Below are positions 1-40,376 of a DNA stretch of 40,423 nt, piece by piece. Position 1 is the stretch's first letter; each line of letters starts with the position of its first letter. Below the pieces are notes generated by a model that saw only the letters and a program-made list of their open reading frames with translations, was not told the DNA's origin and made no database searches. The translations under genes and the position numbers were made by a program. This DNA comes from Chitinophaga pinensis (lineage in GTDB: Bacteria; Bacteroidota; Bacteroidia; UBA4408), in NCBI GenBank assembly GCA_945872355.1, contig CAMBZU010000024.1, positions 1 to 40,423 on the forward strand, read 5' to 3'.

Positions 1-843
1 GAGAAAAAAATAATGGTTTCTGCAACCAATTTGCAACGTATCCCTTCTTTTGTGAAAGTCAAAAATCCACAATTAATAAACTTTGAGAAACATGATGATA
101 ACATTGCTGACTTATCGCTACACCATGTAATATCTGAAGACAAAGACAAGTTGAATACACTTTTTAATTTGATATGTAACCTTAAAAATGAAGCAGCCTT
201 AATATTTTGCAACCATAGAGATGCCTGTGAAAGAACTGTTACTTTTTTAAAGGCAAAAGGAATATTTGCAACTGTTTATCATGGTGGTATGGAGCAAGCA
301 GAAAGAGAAAAGGCTTTGGTTCAATTTAGAAATGGGAGTGTAAGTTACTTGGTAACTACCGACCTTGCCGCAAGAGGACTTGATATCCCTGCTATGAAAC
401 ATGTTATACATTATCAAATGTCGATACATGAAAATGAGTTTGTACACCGAAATGGCAGAACTGCGCGCATGCAGGCAAAAGGAAATGCTTATTTATTATT
501 GTCGAAAGATGAAAAAAAACCACATTTTATTAAAACTGATTTGCCTATTTTTTCATTGAAATCAAATGTTAGCTTGCCAACTAAACCAGTATTTGCAACC
601 GTTAGCATTAGTGGAGGTAAAAAAAATAAAATAAACAAAGTGGATATTGCAGGCGCCTTTATCCAAAAAGGAAATTTAGCAAAGGATGATATTGGTTTAA
701 TTGAAGTGAAAGACTTTAATTCTTTTGTTGCCATTAATGCTGCCAAAGTAAATGATTTTTTACGATTGATTAAAGATCAAAAAATTAAGGGAAACAAATA
801 CAAAATTGAGATTGCAAAAGATCAAATTGAATATGTGAAATAA
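1..843 (+). CDS. dbpA: DEAD-box ATP-dependent RNA helicase, DbpA-like (5' end cut off by window)
   Basis: This is the C-terminal part of a DEAD-box RNA helicase, an enzyme that remodels structured RNA; DbpA-type members act on 23S rRNA during large-subunit assembly. The frame is open back to base 1, so the gene starts outside the window and the ATG at 13 is internal. Seen here: the end of domain 1 with motif III (SAT, codons 7-9); then helicase domain 2 with a motif IV-like IFCNH segment, motif V (TTDLAARGLDIP, near codons 118-130) and motif VI (HRNGRTAR, from codon 149). The last 70 or so codons fit the DbpA RNA-binding domain (a small RRM-like fold), including an ISGGKKNKINKVDIAGAF start like the domain's usual glycine/lysine-rich opening. 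Motif VI has Ala where HRIGRTGR is usual. The gene symbol rests on this C-terminal domain; a CsdA/RhlE-type name is less likely. Confidence 0.85.
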   Translation, partial: EKKIMVSATNLQRIPSFVKVKNPQLINFEKHDDNIADLSLHHVISEDKDKLNTLFNLICNLKNEAALIFCNHRDACERTVTFLKAKGIFATVYHGGMEQAEREKALVQFRNGSVSYLVTTDLAARGLDIPAMKHVIHYQMSIHENEFVHRNGRTARMQAKGNAYLLLSKDEKKPHFIKTDLPIFSLKSNVSLPTKPVFATVSISGGKKNKINKVDIAGAFIQKGNLAKDDIGLIEVKDFNSFVAINAAKVNDFLRLIKDQKIKGNKYKIEIAKDQIEYVK

Positions 844-14899: not shown

Positions 14900-15030
14900 T
14901 TATACCAATAGCATTTATTTTTTAGGCCAACTAAAAAATAAATTTACAATGGTTAATGCCGATACAACTTGAAACTAGTACAATAAGGCTTGGCCGCAAT
15001 TGGACTAAATTGAAAGTGTAATCGGTATAA
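14900..15030. repeat. 131-bp interspersed repeat, copy A (inverted ends, MITE-like)
   Basis: Begins TTATACCAAT and ends AATCGGTATAA, which are imperfect inverted repeats. A perfect 13-base-pair hairpin lies inside near the left end (arms 14913-14925 and 14931-14943), and TTAGTCCAA-like sequence recurs inverted near the right end (ATTGGACTAA). Copy B at 40246-40376 is exactly the same length and about 90 percent identical by eye, in the same orientation. No coding capacity. Confidence 0.8.
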
Positions 15031-15233
15031 TCAATTATTATGCTCAATTTAGTTCCTAAGCCCCTTCCAATTTTATTAAGCAGCTTCAAAGTGCTTTTCA
15101 ATTATTGGAAATTAGTCCTTTTTTAGTAACTCGCTACAAAAATATTAGCTCTTTAAACCCAAATTAATCAATAGGAGATTTAAAAAATAGAACTACTTGA
15201 TTTAGTTGGGTTAATCCCGATTTAGAAAATGTT

Positions 15234-15291
15234 ATCAGATTTGTAAAAATCTGATTTACAATTTCTTTATCGTTTACGCATTTCTAATGCG
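15234..15291. repeat. Pair of neighbouring palindromes
   Basis: First ATCAGATTT, loop GTAA, AAATCTGAT (15234-15255, 9-bp stem); then CGCATT, loop TCT, AATGCG (15277-15291, 6-bp stem). The pair resembles the double-palindrome arrangement of REP sequences, but no REP-associated transposase gene is in the window. Confidence 0.45.
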
Positions 15292-15572
15292 CAATCTGGG
15301 TTAAATTTAAGAAAGTTTTCCTTTAGATTATTCTTTGTTATTGATGAGAAATAATTTACAGTAAGGATTTTAGCTTGTGTTCACAATAAAAGAAGTCCAA
15401 GTAGAAGGCCTTAGTTGTGTAATTAAGCTTCAGCTAACAAAAAAAATTTATAGTTGCTGTTGTGCTTGCGCTAGGTTTTTGTAATTTGACTAAAATTATA
15501 TTTATGGCTAAAAGTTTATTTTTTTTAAGGGCTTAATATCAGTTACTTTGTAGTGTTATAACGACTTTAAAA

Positions 15573-24164: not shown

Positions 24165-24180
24165 TAACTAAATTTATTTT

Positions 24181-24212
24181 GTATAATCGGTATTATTTCA
24201 CATCGGTATAAT
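24181..24212. repeat. Short relative of the interspersed repeat (ends only)
   Basis: Contains ATCGGTATTAT and ATCGGTATAAT, both like the right end of the 131-bp repeat, separated by TTCAC. A similar arrangement, inverted, occurs at 40170-40203. Lies between the GH3 fusion gene and the SpoIIE gene. Confidence 0.5.
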
Positions 24213-26398: not shown

Positions 26399-26539
26399 GC
26401 ATTGATATTCATGGATTATATTAAAAATTAATTCAGTGTAACGTTCAAAAACACAGGTGCAGGAATAGTGCAATTCTATTGTTTTTGCTTAAATTTTACT
26501 TTGATCTATTTAATAAATACAAATGGGATAAGCCGCCAC

Positions 26540-28380: not shown

Positions 28381-28451
28381 TGTTATTCATCAAAGCAAAT
28401 GTCACGAAAACGTTAATCCACTTATATTTATTAAGTAGCCCAAAGCTATGT

Positions 28452-28535
28452 AATAAATATACAATGGATAATGCCGAAATAACAAAATATAGTTCAATAA
28501 AATTGGACTAACTATTTTGTATAATCTTTATTAAA
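28452..28535. repeat. 131-bp interspersed repeat, decayed copy C
   Basis: Shares AAATATACAATGG, TAATGCCGA, a central AGTTCAA and AATTGGACTAA with copies A and B in the same order and orientation. The left end is lost and the middle is shortened, while the right end (TATAATCTTTAT) has drifted from AATCGGTATAA. Confidence 0.6.
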
Positions 28536-32610: not shown

Positions 32611-35600
32611 ATGAAAAATAAAGTGTTGATTTTCATTCTTTTTACTTTCATAATATCATTTTCAGCAATTGCACAATGTGATTTTGGAAATGGTTTAGTA
32701 GGCTCAAATAATGCGCCTTTTGCATTAGGATCTGCAGCAGTTACAGTTGTTGGAAATGATGTAACTGTAACTTCAAACGTTTCAATGACTTCAGGAATTT
32801 ATAATTTTAATAATTTTACAGTTAACGCAGGAGTTGTTATTATAGTAACAGCAGGTGTTGGACCGCTAATATTAAAATGTACAGGTACAGCAGCCATCAA
32901 TGGAGTAATAAGATCTGATGGTGGTAATGGTGGAAATGGAACACTAGGTACATTTTCTGGTGGGATAGGGGGTGCTGGAGGAATAGGAGCAGCTGGTTGG
33001 GGAACTGATGGTGGATTAGGAGGCTCGGTGGGATTAGGTGTAAATGGGAATGCTGGTTTATCCTTTGGTTCATCTTTGGGCGCAGGTTCTGGTGGCGTTG
33101 GAAATTCGTCTTCAGGGCCATGGAGCGCTGGAGCAGGAGGTGGTGCAGGATATTCAATAAATGGGACTGTTGGTAACACTACTGATGGAGGTGCTGGAGG
33201 AGCTGCTGGTTTTGTTTATGGAGATGCTGCACTAACAACAATGATGACACAATCTGCTGTAAGTAGTAATTTATTAGGAGGATCTGGAGGAGGCGGTGGA
33301 GGAAACCGAGGAAATATATCAAGAGCTGCCGGAGGCGGTGGTGGTGGAGGCGGTGGTGCAATTCAAATAACTGCCACAAATTTAACTTTTAGTCCAACTG
33401 GCCTTATTTCTGTTAAAGCTGGTAATGGCGGTACCTCGACAAATAATGGAGGTGCTTATGGTGGTTCAGGTGGTGGAGGAAGTGGAGGTACAATTAATTT
33501 AAAATCGAGTAATATTACAGGTTTTATATTAGCTGCAAATGCTGATGCTTCTGGAGGAACAGGAGGTGCTACAAGTGGAAATAATGGCGGGCCAGCCACA
33601 GGTGGCAATGGGGCAGCAGGTAGAATTTTGACAGAGCAATGTACTCCTTTATCAAACACAATTACAACAGGAATAATTTCAGGAAGCCCTTTTTGTGCAG
33701 GCAGTACCTTTAATGTGCCATTTACTTCAATAGGAACTTTTACAGCTGGTAACATTTACACTGCGCAATTAAGTGATGCATTAGGTAGTTTTGCTTCACC
33801 AATAAATATAGGAACACTAAATAGCACTGCTAATGCAGGTTCAATCTCAGTTACAATTCCAGGTGGAACTGCAACTGGAAGTGGCTATCTTATAAGAGTA
33901 ATTTCAAGTAATCCTGCAATTACAGGTGCAGCGTCACTTACTTTTACTGTTAACGCAACAGTTAGCACAACTTTTAATGCTGTTGCCAACGTTTGTCAAA
34001 ATTCAACTGCGCCAGTTTTACCAACGAGTTCAATCAACGTTCCGCCAATTACAGGCGCTTGGAATGTACCAGTGAGCACAGCCAATGCAGGCACCACAAT
34101 TTACACTTTTACGCCTGATGCTGGTCAATGTGCTAGTATTGCCACTTTGAGCATCACTATTGATCCAGCAATTAGCACAACTTTTAATACTGTTGCCAAC
34201 CTTTGTCAAAATTCAACAGCGCCAGTTTTACCAACGAGTTCAACCAACGTTCCGCCAATTACCGGCGCTTGGAATGCACCAGTGAACACAGCCAATGCAG
34301 GCACCACAATTTACACTTTTACGCCTGATGCTGGTCAATGTGCTAGTATTGCTACTTTGAGTATCAGTGTTGATCCAACAATTAGCACAACTTTTAATGC
34401 TGTTGCCAACGTTTGTCAAAATTCAACTGCGCCAGTTTTACCAACGAGTTCAACCAACGTTCCGCCAATTACCGGCGCTTGGAATGTACCAGTGAGCACA
34501 GCCAATGCAGGTACCACGATTTACACTTTTACGCCTGATGCAGGTCAATGTGCTAGTATTGCTACTTTGAGTATTACTGTTGATCCAACAATTAGCACAA
34601 CTTTTAATGCTGTTGCCAACCTTTGTCAAAATGCAACTGCGCCAGTTTTACCAACGAGTTCAACCAACGTACCGCCAATTACAGGCGCTTGGAATGCAAC
34701 AGTGAGCACAGCCAATGCAGGCACCACGATTTACACTTTTACGCCTGATGCTGGTCAATGTGCTAGTACAACAACTTTAAGTATAACAGTTAATGCTCCT
34801 GTTGTTCCAACATTTACAGGCATTGGACCATTGTGTTTAAATGCTGCAGCGCCCGTTTTAAGTTTAAGTTCCACAAATAGTTCACCTATTACAGGTACAT
34901 GGAGTTCAGCAGTGGTAAATACTTCAACCGTTGGCATAACAACCTATACATTTACACCAGATGCAGGCCAATGTGCTACCACAGCAGCAATGGATATTGA
35001 AATTACAAATTCTATAACACCAATTTTTGCAGCCTTTGGGCCTTTTTGTCAAAATTCACCTACAGTATTATTGCCACAAAGTTCATCTAATGTGCCTTCA
35101 ATAGCTGGTACTTGGACACCTTTTCTTAGTGTAAATACTTCCACGATAGGAACAAGTACTTATACATTTACACCTGATGCTGGCCAATGTGCTTCGTTAA
35201 CAACCGTGGATATTGTAATTGCTGCACCATCAATTACACCAACTTTTAATCAATTTGGTCCATTGTGTTTAAATGCTGTTGCACCAACTTTATCATTAGT
35301 TTCTGCTAATGCCACACCAATAACGGGTGGATGGAGCCCGAACATTATTAATACTTCTGTTGCAGGTATTGTTATCTATACATTTACGCCTGATGCTGGC
35401 CAATGCGCTACCACAGCCACTATGGATATTGAAATTACCACAGCTATCGTTCCCACATTTGCAAGCATAGGGCCACTTTGTGTTGGAAACATAGCGCCAA
35501 GTTTACCATTAAGTTCTACAAATACAATTGCAATAACTGGTTTATGGAGTCCATCAACAATAAACACTACAAGCATTGGTACATTTACATTTAACTTTAC

Positions 35601-37200
35601 TGCCGATGCCAATCAATGTGCAGCTAATACAAGTATTAATATAGATGTTACAAATAGTATAACGCCAACATTTGCAGCAATTGCTCCTTTATGTCAAGGT
35701 GCTGTTGCGCCCACATTGCCATTAAGCTCTGCAAATATTCCGGCCATTACAGGCACTTGGAATCCAACTACAATTAACACAACAACAACAGGTATTGTTA
35801 CCTATACATTTACGCCTGATGCAGGCCAATGTGGAGCAACTGTAACTTTAGATGTTGAAGTAATTTCAGTGCCTCCAGCCCCAGCAATAACAATTGCAGC
35901 AAGTTCCACAACAATATGTGCTGGGCAATCTATTGATTTTACAGCAATTCCAAATTCAACAAATACAGGAGATATAATTCAGTGGTTTATTAATGGAAAT
36001 TTAGTAGTAGGAGGAACTGGTTTATTATTTAGTTCAAATACTTTAAATAACAATGATCAAGTTACAGCAATGTTTACGCCATCTTCCAGTTGTTTAACAG
36101 GACAAACGGCTACATCTAATTTGGTAATCATTACAGTAAATCCTTCAGTAGTGCCCAGCATTTCAATTAATGCAACATCTACACAAATATGTGTAGGCAA
36201 CAACATAACATTTAATACAACTATTAGCGGAGGAGGGAGCAATCCGCAAGTGCAATGGTTTATTAATGGAAATTCAGTTGCAGGCGCAACAGCCGCAACA
36301 TTCAGTTCCACCACATTGTCAAACAATGATTTGGTAAGTGCTCAATTAATAAGCAATGCACCTTGTGCCACGCCAAGTATTTTACTATCAAACTCATTAT
36401 CTATTTCAATATTACCTTATGGAACGCCAACAATTACAATTACTTCAGATAATAATGTAATATGTGTTGGTCAGCAGGTAGTAATTAATGCAGCTTTTGA
36501 ATTTGGAGGTGCTTCGCCTCAATTTAATTGGCAAGTTGGCGGAAGTATTATTACAACAGTAACGCCAAGCTTCACTGCAATTGGTTTAAGTGCATCAGCA
36601 AGTGTAACCTGCACTTTAATTAGTGATTATGCTTGTTTAACAAGTCCTAGTGCAATTTCAAATAATATTGATATTCAATTGAATCCTACACCAACAGTAG
36701 TTTTGAGCGAAAATGTTACTATACAAGAAGGTGAGTCAACTACTTTAACTGCCACTGCAACACCAGGAATGACTTATTTATGGACCCCATCTGAAAGCTT
36801 ATCTTGTAACGATTGTTTATTGCCAACTGCAAGTCCGGTTGAAACAACTGTTTATACTTTTAGTGTAATTGATCCCGCAACAACTTGCGTTGCAAGTGAT
36901 TCATTAGCAGTAACGGTAATTAGAAATTATGATATATGGGTGCCAACGGCATTCAGTCCTAATGGCGATAGCAATAATGATTTCTTTTTTGTGAGAGGAA
37001 ATAACGTAAAAGAATTTTCCATACGTATTTTCGATAAATGGGGGGCGCAACTTTATGAAAGCGCTAATTTAGCTGAAGGTTGGAATGGTGAGTTTAAGAA
37101 CAAAAAGATTAATACAGGCGTGTTGGTATATATACTCGATTTTACTTTAAATGACGGCACTGCAGGATCAAGAAAAGGAAATATTAGCGTTTCGAACTAA
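32611..37200 (+). CDS. Giant repeat-rich surface adhesin with type B (CHU_C) T9SS sorting domain
   Basis: A 1529-residue exported protein. Signal peptide at 1-21 (ending AIAQ). Parts in order: a short beta-region; a glycine-rich block at about 97-343 with runs such as GGSGGGGGG; a segment shared with the 903-residue protein (CAGSTFNVPF, NIYTAQLSDALGSFASP; about 358-450); nine tandem units of about 70 residues at 451-1087, each with a CQN or CLN motif, a TW or AW and an FTPDAGQCA motif, so two cysteines per unit; three Ig-like units with CxG starts at about 1090-1370; and a type B sorting domain at about 1445-1529 (VPTAFSPNGDSNNDFFFVRG, IFDKWGAQLYES, GVLVYIL). The first four 70-residue units are nearly identical. 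The PorP/SprF gene lies 109 bases upstream. I expect a long, extended surface protein for adhesion or gliding; the binding partner is unknown. Confidence 0.88.
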   Translation: MKNKVLIFILFTFIISFSAIAQCDFGNGLVGSNNAPFALGSAAVTVVGNDVTVTSNVSMTSGIYNFNNFTVNAGVVIIVTAGVGPLILKCTGTAAINGVIRSDGGNGGNGTLGTFSGGIGGAGGIGAAGWGTDGGLGGSVGLGVNGNAGLSFGSSLGAGSGGVGNSSSGPWSAGAGGGAGYSINGTVGNTTDGGAGGAAGFVYGDAALTTMMTQSAVSSNLLGGSGGGGGGNRGNISRAAGGGGGGGGGAIQITATNLTFSPTGLISVKAGNGGTSTNNGGAYGGSGGGGSGGTINLKSSNITGFILAANADASGGTGGATSGNNGGPATGGNGAAGRILTEQCTPLSNTITTGIISGSPFCAGSTFNVPFTSIGTFTAGNIYTAQLSDALGSFASPINIGTLNSTANAGSISVTIPGGTATGSGYLIRVISSNPAITGAASLTFTVNATVSTTFNAVANVCQNSTAPVLPTSSINVPPITGAWNVPVSTANAGTTIYTFTPDAGQCASIATLSITIDPAISTTFNTVANLCQNSTAPVLPTSSTNVPPITGAWNAPVNTANAGTTIYTFTPDAGQCASIATLSISVDPTISTTFNAVANVCQNSTAPVLPTSSTNVPPITGAWNVPVSTANAGTTIYTFTPDAGQCASIATLSITVDPTISTTFNAVANLCQNATAPVLPTSSTNVPPITGAWNATVSTANAGTTIYTFTPDAGQCASTTTLSITVNAPVVPTFTGIGPLCLNAAAPVLSLSSTNSSPITGTWSSAVVNTSTVGITTYTFTPDAGQCATTAAMDIEITNSITPIFAAFGPFCQNSPTVLLPQSSSNVPSIAGTWTPFLSVNTSTIGTSTYTFTPDAGQCASLTTVDIVIAAPSITPTFNQFGPLCLNAVAPTLSLVSANATPITGGWSPNIINTSVAGIVIYTFTPDAGQCATTATMDIEITTAIVPTFASIGPLCVGNIAPSLPLSSTNTIAITGLWSPSTINTTSIGTFTFNFTADANQCAANTSINIDVTNSITPTFAAIAPLCQGAVAPTLPLSSANIPAITGTWNPTTINTTTTGIVTYTFTPDAGQCGATVTLDVEVISVPPAPAITIAASSTTICAGQSIDFTAIPNSTNTGDIIQWFINGNLVVGGTGLLFSSNTLNNNDQVTAMFTPSSSCLTGQTATSNLVIITVNPSVVPSISINATSTQICVGNNITFNTTISGGGSNPQVQWFINGNSVAGATAATFSSTTLSNNDLVSAQLISNAPCATPSILLSNSLSISILPYGTPTITITSDNNVICVGQQVVINAAFEFGGASPQFNWQVGGSIITTVTPSFTAIGLSASASVTCTLISDYACLTSPSAISNNIDIQLNPTPTVVLSENVTIQEGESTTLTATATPGMTYLWTPSESLSCNDCLLPTASPVETTVYTFSVIDPATTCVASDSLAVTVIRNYDIWVPTAFSPNGDSNNDFFFVRGNNVKEFSIRIFDKWGAQLYESANLAEGWNGEFKNKKINTGVLVYILDFTLNDGTAGSRKGNISVSN
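33961..35870 (+). repeat. Nine tandem coding repeats of about 210 bp
   Basis: Units start at 33961, 34171, 34381 and 34591 with exact 210-base spacing and near-identical sequence, followed by five more diverged units (from about 34801, 35014, 35236, 35448 and 35658). Each encodes about 70 residues containing FTPDAGQCA or a close form of it. In frame with the giant adhesin throughout. Confidence 0.9.
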
Positions 37201-40169: not shown

Positions 40170-40203
40170 TTTAATACCGAAGTGAAATTATTGGCATAAT
40201 TTA
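40170..40203. repeat. Short relative of the interspersed repeat
   Basis: TAATACCGAAGTGAAATTATTGGCATAATTTA matches, in reverse complement, the segment at 24181-24212 around the shared TTTCAC and TCGGTAT words. It lies about 45 bases before the full copy B. Confidence 0.45.
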
Positions 40204-40245
40204 TAAATCACATTGTTTTAACCCATATTGGGCATTAGAAGTATG

Positions 40246-40376
40246 TAATACCAATTGTATTTATTTTTTAGTCCAACTAAAAAATAAATATACAATGGTT
40301 AATGCCGATACTACTTGAAATTAGTACAACAAGGTAATGCTGCAATTGGACTAAATTGAAAGTGTAATCGGTATAA
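40246..40376. repeat. 131-bp interspersed repeat, copy B
   Basis: Begins TAATACCAAT and ends AATCGGTATAA, the same end words as copy A, with the same internal 12 to 13-bp hairpin (TTTATTTTTTAG, loop TCCAA, CTAAAAAATAAA) and the same inverted ATTGGACTAA near the right end. About 13-14 differences from copy A over 131 bases, counted by eye. Confidence 0.8.

Follow-up and report, generated by a model that had tools for sequence, protein, structure and literature searches.

A two-hairpin MITE family with three-base target duplications in Bacteroidia and its probable IS630-like mobiliser

RUP of Streptococcus pneumoniae, a 107 bp intergenic repeat also inserted in mobile elements, targets TA and has ends like those of IS630-Spn1, its proposed mover, while the CIR repeats of Caulobacter and Brucella consist of two arms and a linker and are conserved between the genera (passages of PMC2229807). 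The Correia or NEMIS elements of Neisseria are described there as short structured MITEs with target duplications and TA at their tips. For MITECca01 of Cardinium, which is about 240 bp long, the proposed mover is an intact insertion sequence of the IS982 family (passages of PMC9769881). BrickBuilt, which contains 23-nt tandem repeats, and other MITEs of Porphyromonas gingivalis have ends that match the IS5 family (GAGACC...; passages of PMC4596501).

The repeat described here, MITE1, is a short, strongly folding intergenic element found in a draft genome of Bacteroidota (133 contigs, 3,402,753 bases; the host). Two copies lie in the window, the whole stretch of 40,423 nucleotides that was analysed.

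Copies, sister families and target duplications

A sequence-only reading of the window had reported two copies of exactly 131 bp, about 90% identical and intergenic, with inverted end words and a perfect internal hairpin, and had taken them for a MITE or a structured repeat family. The repeat observation is confirmed. Each 131-bp unit is a 125-bp element with a 3-bp flank per side, the copies are 90.4% identical over 125 bp, both are intergenic and their end words are as first described. The flanks form a duplication that is exact in copy 2 and inexact in copy 1 (Table 1). The hairpin is real, and the folds of the two copies beat shuffles (plus-strand z −4.70 for copy 1 and −5.10 for copy 2, with 0 of 200 dinucleotide shuffles equal, RNA parameters), folding being strong on either strand. 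The evidence backs MITE and structured repeat family together. What had been read as a decayed copy at 28452–28535 is instead a member of a sister family, MITE3.

Table 1. Features of the MITE families in the window (positions of the whole stretch)
Feature	Position	Strand	Remark
MITE1 copy 1, 125 bp	14903..15027	+	left end TACCAAT, right end ATCGGTA
Left flank triplet TTA of copy 1	14900..14902	.	mismatch to right triplet TAA
Right flank triplet TAA of copy 1	15028..15030	.	
Hairpin 1 of copy 1	14904..14953	+	contains 13-bp perfect AT-rich stem
Core GGTTAATGCCGA of copy 1	14951..14962	+	overlaps feet of both hairpins
Hairpin 2 of copy 1	14958..15026	+	
MITE1 copy 2, 125 bp	40249..40373	+	
Target-site duplication TAA, left of copy 2	40246..40248	.	
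Target-site duplication TAA, right of copy 2	40374..40376	.	
Hairpin 1 of copy 2	40250..40299	+	
Core GGTTAATGCCGA of copy 2	40297..40308	+	
Hairpin 2 of copy 2	40304..40372	+	
MITE3, eroded ends (115 bp when whole)	28418..28526	+	89.9% over 109 bp to the copy nested in L034
MITE2 remnant, 31 bp	40185..40215	−	100% identity to the L062 element
Possible solo right ends, back to back	24172..24208	+	short matches, E 3e-4 and 0.004
MITE3 solo left-end fragment	26499..26526	−	96.4% over 28 bp to the L060 copy, E 4e-8

A search of the host genome with copy 1 revealed at least 30 near-full MITE1 places at 81–100% identity, on many contigs, and ten more with partial or split copies (by row count), numbers that are a lower bound because 40 of 138 candidate places were scored. 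Similarity running past the ends, named by the sequence-only reading as evidence of a longer duplicated segment, was seen in a single pair (L014 and L017): in the 30 aligned copies the similarity stops at the ends and the flanks are otherwise unrelated. The pair is probably a segmental duplication, so that the 17 TTA/TTA copies below would include a single event twice. Mean pairwise identity of the 30 copies was 86.5%, and the best was 98.4% identical to their consensus. The element encodes no gene, its commonest length is 125 bp, and its uniform length and high copy number are those of a MITE.

At least three related families are present in the host: MITE1, MITE2 (124 bp, for example in L062) and MITE3 (for example inside L034). 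They have the end boxes and the core in common and differ in their stems; MITE3 shares hairpin 1 and core with MITE1 and has a different hairpin 2. Within the possible pair of solo right ends, the MITE3 end would occupy 24172–24192 and the MITE2 end 24193–24208. Chimeras with part of one family inside another were observed in L038 (about 220–403), L050 (294–477) and L053 (about 1430–1650), the partners joining at or near the shared core, and may have arisen by insertion and then recombination at that core. L038 and L050 are similar in make-up, so such a chimera may itself have moved.

The tabulation of left and right triplets beside TACC...GGTA covers 47 copies, drawn from the host genome, from relatives of the host and from named records; the pairs are TAA/TAA in 18, TTA/TTA in 17, TTA/TAA in three (window copy 1 among them), TAA/TTA in two and other combinations in seven. 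The Fisher test was restricted to the 40 copies with TWA in both flanks, leaving out the seven others; triplets match in 35 of the 40 (p 3.4e-6; 4.1e-7 without the nested L042 row). As the left and right triplets covary, TWA is neither part of the element nor a fixed one-sided target. Four nested insertions were tested. Removal of the inner element and one TAA from L036 restored a continuous MITE1 (TAA/TAA), and removal of the inner element and one triplet from L046 restored continuous sequence (TTA/TTA); L034 fits with one changed base (TAG/TAA) and L042 is a mismatch (TAA/TTA). L042, 153 bp long with two ends from different elements, was kept in the 47-row table and left out of the 46-sequence alignment used below. 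The sequence-only reading had proposed a look for target duplications, which were seen, and for empty sites in sister strains; the empty sites seen here lie inside other copies. Judged from sequence, by its copy number, inverted ends, 3-bp duplications, nesting and ends shared with insertion sequences, MITE1 is a MITE.

An unrelated 143-bp repeat was noted at 15158–15300 of the window (CCCAAATTAATC...AATCTGGG), with TTAAA on both flanks and more copies in L003, L022, L035, L045, L046 and L049. It lies inside MITE1 in L035 and inside MITE2 in L046, with apparent 5-bp duplications (TTCAA, ATAAT), and is probably another MITE with a different transposase. The ten window reading frames scanned were ordinary (ATP synthase subunits, COX15/CtaA-like, ABC transporters, type IX secretion domains), and together with the named records they indicate Bacteroidota as the phylum of the host. 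One 1529-aa protein, which has a type IX secretion sorting domain, contains tandem repeats (about 210–216 bp, in frame) at 33948–35862.

Spread of the end motif and the two-hairpin architecture

The ends of MITE1, MITE2 and MITE3 carry a bipartite motif, TACCRAT followed after 14 variable bp by roughly DGYCCAA, which reads inward from both ends as in a terminal inverted repeat. The exact pattern occurs 51 + 49 times in the host and 17 + 21 times in G002, with 0 + 0 for the backward control in each. Preceded by TWA, it was detected in 35 of 395 Bacteroidia genomes (backward control, three of 395), several of which hold many copies, and it was rare in close relatives of the host (none in G003, of the same genus, and one in G001). 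Sequence matches to MITE1 were found in five of 60 genomes, the host included: G002 has full copies, G036 one full (76%) and one partial copy, G017 has a single copy at 75%, and the G012 match covers just 34 bp. Seventeen stretches from named records of uncultured genomes contain the exact core region; the labels of these genomes are Saprospiraceae, Flavobacteriaceae, Bacteroidales, Sphingobacteriaceae or Bacteroidia. Plasmid and phage collections yielded no MITE copy and three short weak matches (Paenibacillus, Jeotgalibacillus and a Clostridioides phage). The patchy distribution suggests horizontal spread.

Two hairpins joined by the core GGTWAATGCCGA were found in elements from at least seven Bacteroidia families, in which the stems diverge and the pairing is kept. 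The RNAalifold consensus of 46 aligned copies was weak (−6.2 kcal/mol), with the right half folded differently, and pairs were therefore counted on the two-hairpin structure, which had been named beforehand from single-copy folds. Paired cells made up 94.7% across the 46 copies, against 91.3% in column shuffles and 34–44% when the structure was slid along the alignment. Eleven of the 42 pairs had changed on both sides, nine of them in hairpin 1 (helices 1 and 2), compared with 5.7 in shuffles (one of 500 as high) and 13 for the +1 slide. Doubly changed cells numbered 52 against at most 38 in slid controls, a count that overstates the events since the double changes stem from few ancestral stem types. 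The covariation score was 0.113 (at most 0.063 in slid controls), and the level of further pair types was reached by 18 of 500 shuffles. The pair count favours the two-hairpin structure over the slid controls.

The 16 representatives of the cross-family comparison were selected by eye and are not a random sample: 14 have the core and two lack it. The 14, from seven coded families and one uncoded record (five from the host, three from G048 and one each from G036, G352, G377, G340, G012 and the Bacteroidales record L078), were folded with DNA parameters. A hairpin formed on each side of the core in 12 of them, and hairpin 2 alone formed in L195 and L199. The representatives gave z values of −2.3 to −12.4, with at most five of 200 shuffles as good; the value of −12.4 belongs to the G352 element, which has long stems of wholly different sequence and higher G+C. 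L197 and L198, with the same ends and without the core, fold into one long hairpin. The core was exact in nine of the 14 and had up to three mismatches in five.

Of 20 stretches from other genomes, eight are among the representatives (six with the core, two without) and the other 12 were folded separately: seven had a hairpin next to a core-like word with 0 to 3 mismatches, mostly without a clean second half, three had no core and two were insertion-sequence ends. A core-like word was thus present in 13 of the 18 other-genome stretches that are not insertion-sequence ends and absent in five, so the double hairpin is one common design and not a property of the ends alone. The 14 core-bearing representatives would form one lineage, an assignment that rests on the core, the box order and the length of 103–138 bp.

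The core holds two outward-facing altered end boxes, TGCC for TACC and GGTTA or GGTAA for GGTA. At the foot of hairpin 2, the G of TGCC (43 of 46 copies) faces a partner T (45 of 46) in a G-T wobble; both letters are kept, so the wobble has been retained and not corrected. TGCC was present in 13 of the 14 representatives, L206 having TACC. Separately, a MITE1 copy in L066 (6941–7036) has lost hairpin 1 between its arms while its flanks are still TAA/TAA, a loss that extrusion of the hairpin during replication would be expected to produce.

Insertion sequences with related ends

The transposase with matching ends that the sequence-only reading had suggested seeking was located in IS630-like elements of G012, G260, G367 and G172, with no intact one in the host. 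Many contig ends in G012 have the end pattern about 110–140 bp away, which is how assembly would break up a longer element present in many copies; one element end opens into a start codon and a helix-turn-helix-like N-terminus, and another encodes a C-terminus. These two transposase fragments gave only sub-threshold matches in Pfam and nothing in NCBIfam. The query was a related 161-aa fragment from G067, which matches the IS630 profile at E 9.6e-11 without reaching the cut-off; it found matches in 16 of 395 genomes, three of them being places in the host. Two of the host relatives are contig-edge fragments that closely resemble each other, and the third has three stops; a 63-aa host fragment had no match in Pfam or NCBIfam.

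G260 and G367 each yielded a full-length element (1162 bp and 1161 bp) that has the right ends and contains two frames that overlap. Their second frames scored 115.6 and 119.1 bits respectively against the IS630 profile NF033545, above its cut-off of 100, and matched DDE_3 (8.7e-19 and 5.2e-24), while the first frames scored 57.1 and 46.2 bits, below that cut-off. The sole solved relative was Sleeping Beauty (E 0.0037, in a search at E up to 1), which is consistent with the Tc1/mariner-IS630 superfamily.

Elements of the IS630 family target TA and produce a 2-bp duplication. Here the same 3-bp TWA was present on both sides in six of the seven elements with both ends in hand (three with variant ends), and the group is named IS630-like because its target differs from TA. 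The duplication was seen in all four elements with TACC left tips (G260, G367, G172 and G377, of which the last two are shortened with altered right tips) and in two of three from G350 (tips TACG); L194 has TAA/TTA and L188 contains masked bases.

Of 28 positions compared with the G367 right end, the TTAAATAG variant of the MITE1 left end matches at 25 and the majority left end at 23; the MITE1 right end agrees with any insertion-sequence end at no more than 21 of 28. The host's own relative has different ends, TACTAAA...AGACCAA, which agree with MITE1 ends at 18, 19 and 15 of 28 positions and with MITE2 at 21 and 19 of 28, no worse than other insertion sequences. An intact insertion sequence with TACC...AGTCCAA ends was detected neither in the host, where the protein query gave contig-edge or decayed pieces only, nor in G002, the other genome with many copies, where it gave nothing. 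No transposase with these ends was returned by PF01609, PF13586 or PF13358 in the host and G002 or by PF13359 in the host. Across 11 genomes PF13358 (DDE_3) matched only in G012, at four places, and the end pattern was absent from these loci with up to three mismatches allowed. From the sequence comparisons, the IS630-like group (about 1.16 kb) is the probable mobiliser of MITE1. The exact partner in the host, not found there, may have been lost, left unbinned or collapsed in assembly.

In the leaders of these insertion sequences, the end minus its tip recurs in inverted orientation between left tip and start codon. In single-base shuffles of the AT-rich sequence, nine of ten leaders were equalled by 0 or 1 of 500 shuffles and G012a by 16 of 500; as exceptions, the G350 match lies off the expected place and the inner box of G172 is degenerate. 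Several IS630-like left ends also show a short hairpin and then a T-rich run (CCAATAT...ATATTGGTTTTTTT) just inside, for example L162 at about 190–272 (minus strand) and L159 at 1406–1485, which could stop outside transcription entering the transposase gene. A further insertion sequence in the host (L062 1013–2081, contig C47), with ends AACCTGAGTTCGATTA and an open DDE_Tnp_1 transposase, adjoins a MITE2 copy; it looks IS982-like.

Proposed mechanism, alternatives and comparison with known systems

We consider it highly probable that MITE1 is a gene-less MITE built of two hairpin halves and moved into TWA by a foreign transposase, most likely an IS630-like one. A transposase made elsewhere would cut and insert the element; its source would be the IS630-like group with the same boxes, a TACCRAT tip and AGTCCAA 14 bp further in, and insertion at TWA (TTA or TAA) would duplicate those 3 bp. 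In each half, one end would pair with an altered version of itself in inverted orientation to form a hairpin, and the halves would meet at the conserved core. A MITE half resembles an insertion-sequence leader, so the MITE may derive from two such modules, with an altered tip added, joined back to back. We infer that an IS630-like enzyme moves MITE1, that the fold matters for movement and that the leader modules gave rise to it. More tentatively, MITE1 may be a long-lived non-autonomous lineage spread across many Bacteroidia families with a selected DNA fold, in which each hairpin would pair a working end with a defective inner copy (TGCC for TACC); the defective copies would block halving of the element, the fold would join the true ends, and the lineage would depend on a TWA-targeting IS630-like group.

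That the stems were kept by a copying bias, namely template switching between arms, and not by selection is a doubtful reading of the same MITE, yet one to be taken seriously. Hairpin arms are hot spots of template-switch correction, and the L066 copy without hairpin 1 between its arms fits such events; full correction would, however, erase the G-T wobble of hairpin 2, whose two letters are retained at the frequencies given above, as is TGCC among the representatives. Shared ancestry could also explain the wobble letters. The 3-bp TWA duplication itself could point to another enzyme, as IS5-type transposases (IS1031/PIF-Harbinger-like) duplicate TNA or TWA. Movement by such an enzyme appears improbable: PF01609 gave two matches in the host and PF13359 one, where the open C47 transposase has other ends and C42, cut by a contig edge, has no such end visible. 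PF01609 gave seven matches in eight copy-bearing genomes and PF13586 13 in nine, with no TACCRAT end pair around any returned locus, several of them contig-edge-cut, whereas IS630-like elements do have the right ends and TWA duplications. MITE1 was not assigned to the IS5-derived MITEs, since no IS5-type transposase with these ends was among the loci returned.

A structured RNA family that spread by duplication and serves the host as a regulator, terminator or processing site would agree with the presence of both hairpins in most of the chosen core representatives across divergent families and with the intergenic position of both window copies. No Rfam match was found in the window, and the target duplications, mutual nesting and ends shared with insertion sequences indicate mobile DNA, which makes this reading very unlikely; MITE1 may still have secondary RNA effects. 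Least credible is a palindromic repeat of REP/REPIN-like or IS200/IS605-derived type with a Y1 single-strand transposase as its mover; the two hairpins per element and the strong folding on both strands might have pointed that way. REPINs and IS200/IS605 derivatives are not known to make target duplications, whereas the MITE1 triplets match in 35 of 40 copies and nested insertions duplicate their target; assignment to that class was rejected on the duplications present.

MITE1 offers a testable case for the old question of why bacterial MITEs are so short, length-uniform and strongly structured. Across hosts the stems have diverged while the pairing, the approximate length and the central core were kept, and with a likely enzyme group identified, stem, core and end can each be altered and assayed. 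An IS630-like group whose target is 3 bp long is also indicated, and in draft genomes of Bacteroidota the findings may help to account for contig breaks and for repeats between genes.

Cardinium is placed in the same phylum as the host, and its MITECca01 resembles MITE1, as described, in being a MITE with a proposed insertion-sequence mover; it differs in its length of about 240 bp and its IS982 parent. BrickBuilt is likewise a Bacteroidota MITE with ends that match an insertion sequence, and differs, from its description, in its IS5-family ends and tandem repeats. The Correia or NEMIS elements are short, structured and target-duplicating like MITE1, but are depicted as one stem-loop formed from both ends, in contrast to two hairpins. 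CIR shares the two-arm design, a likeness of described architecture only; unlike MITE1, it carries a GANTC motif and its mobiliser is unnamed in the passages of PMC2229807. RUP is similarly short and intergenic, has IS630-type ends and also occurs inside mobile elements, but its target is given as TA where MITE1 duplicates the 3-bp TWA, and passages of PMC2229807 do not describe it as two hairpins with a conserved core. Two-arm repeats (CIR) and IS630-linked MITEs (RUP) are therefore already known. Neither the MITE1 family nor a TWA-targeting IS630 group was found in the literature covered, an absence that is weak given that most subscription journals lay outside it; the MITE1 family, its two-hairpin design and the 3-base landing site look undescribed. 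What is distinctive is the two-hairpin fold and core recurring in divergent hosts, together with the TWA target of the IS630-like group.
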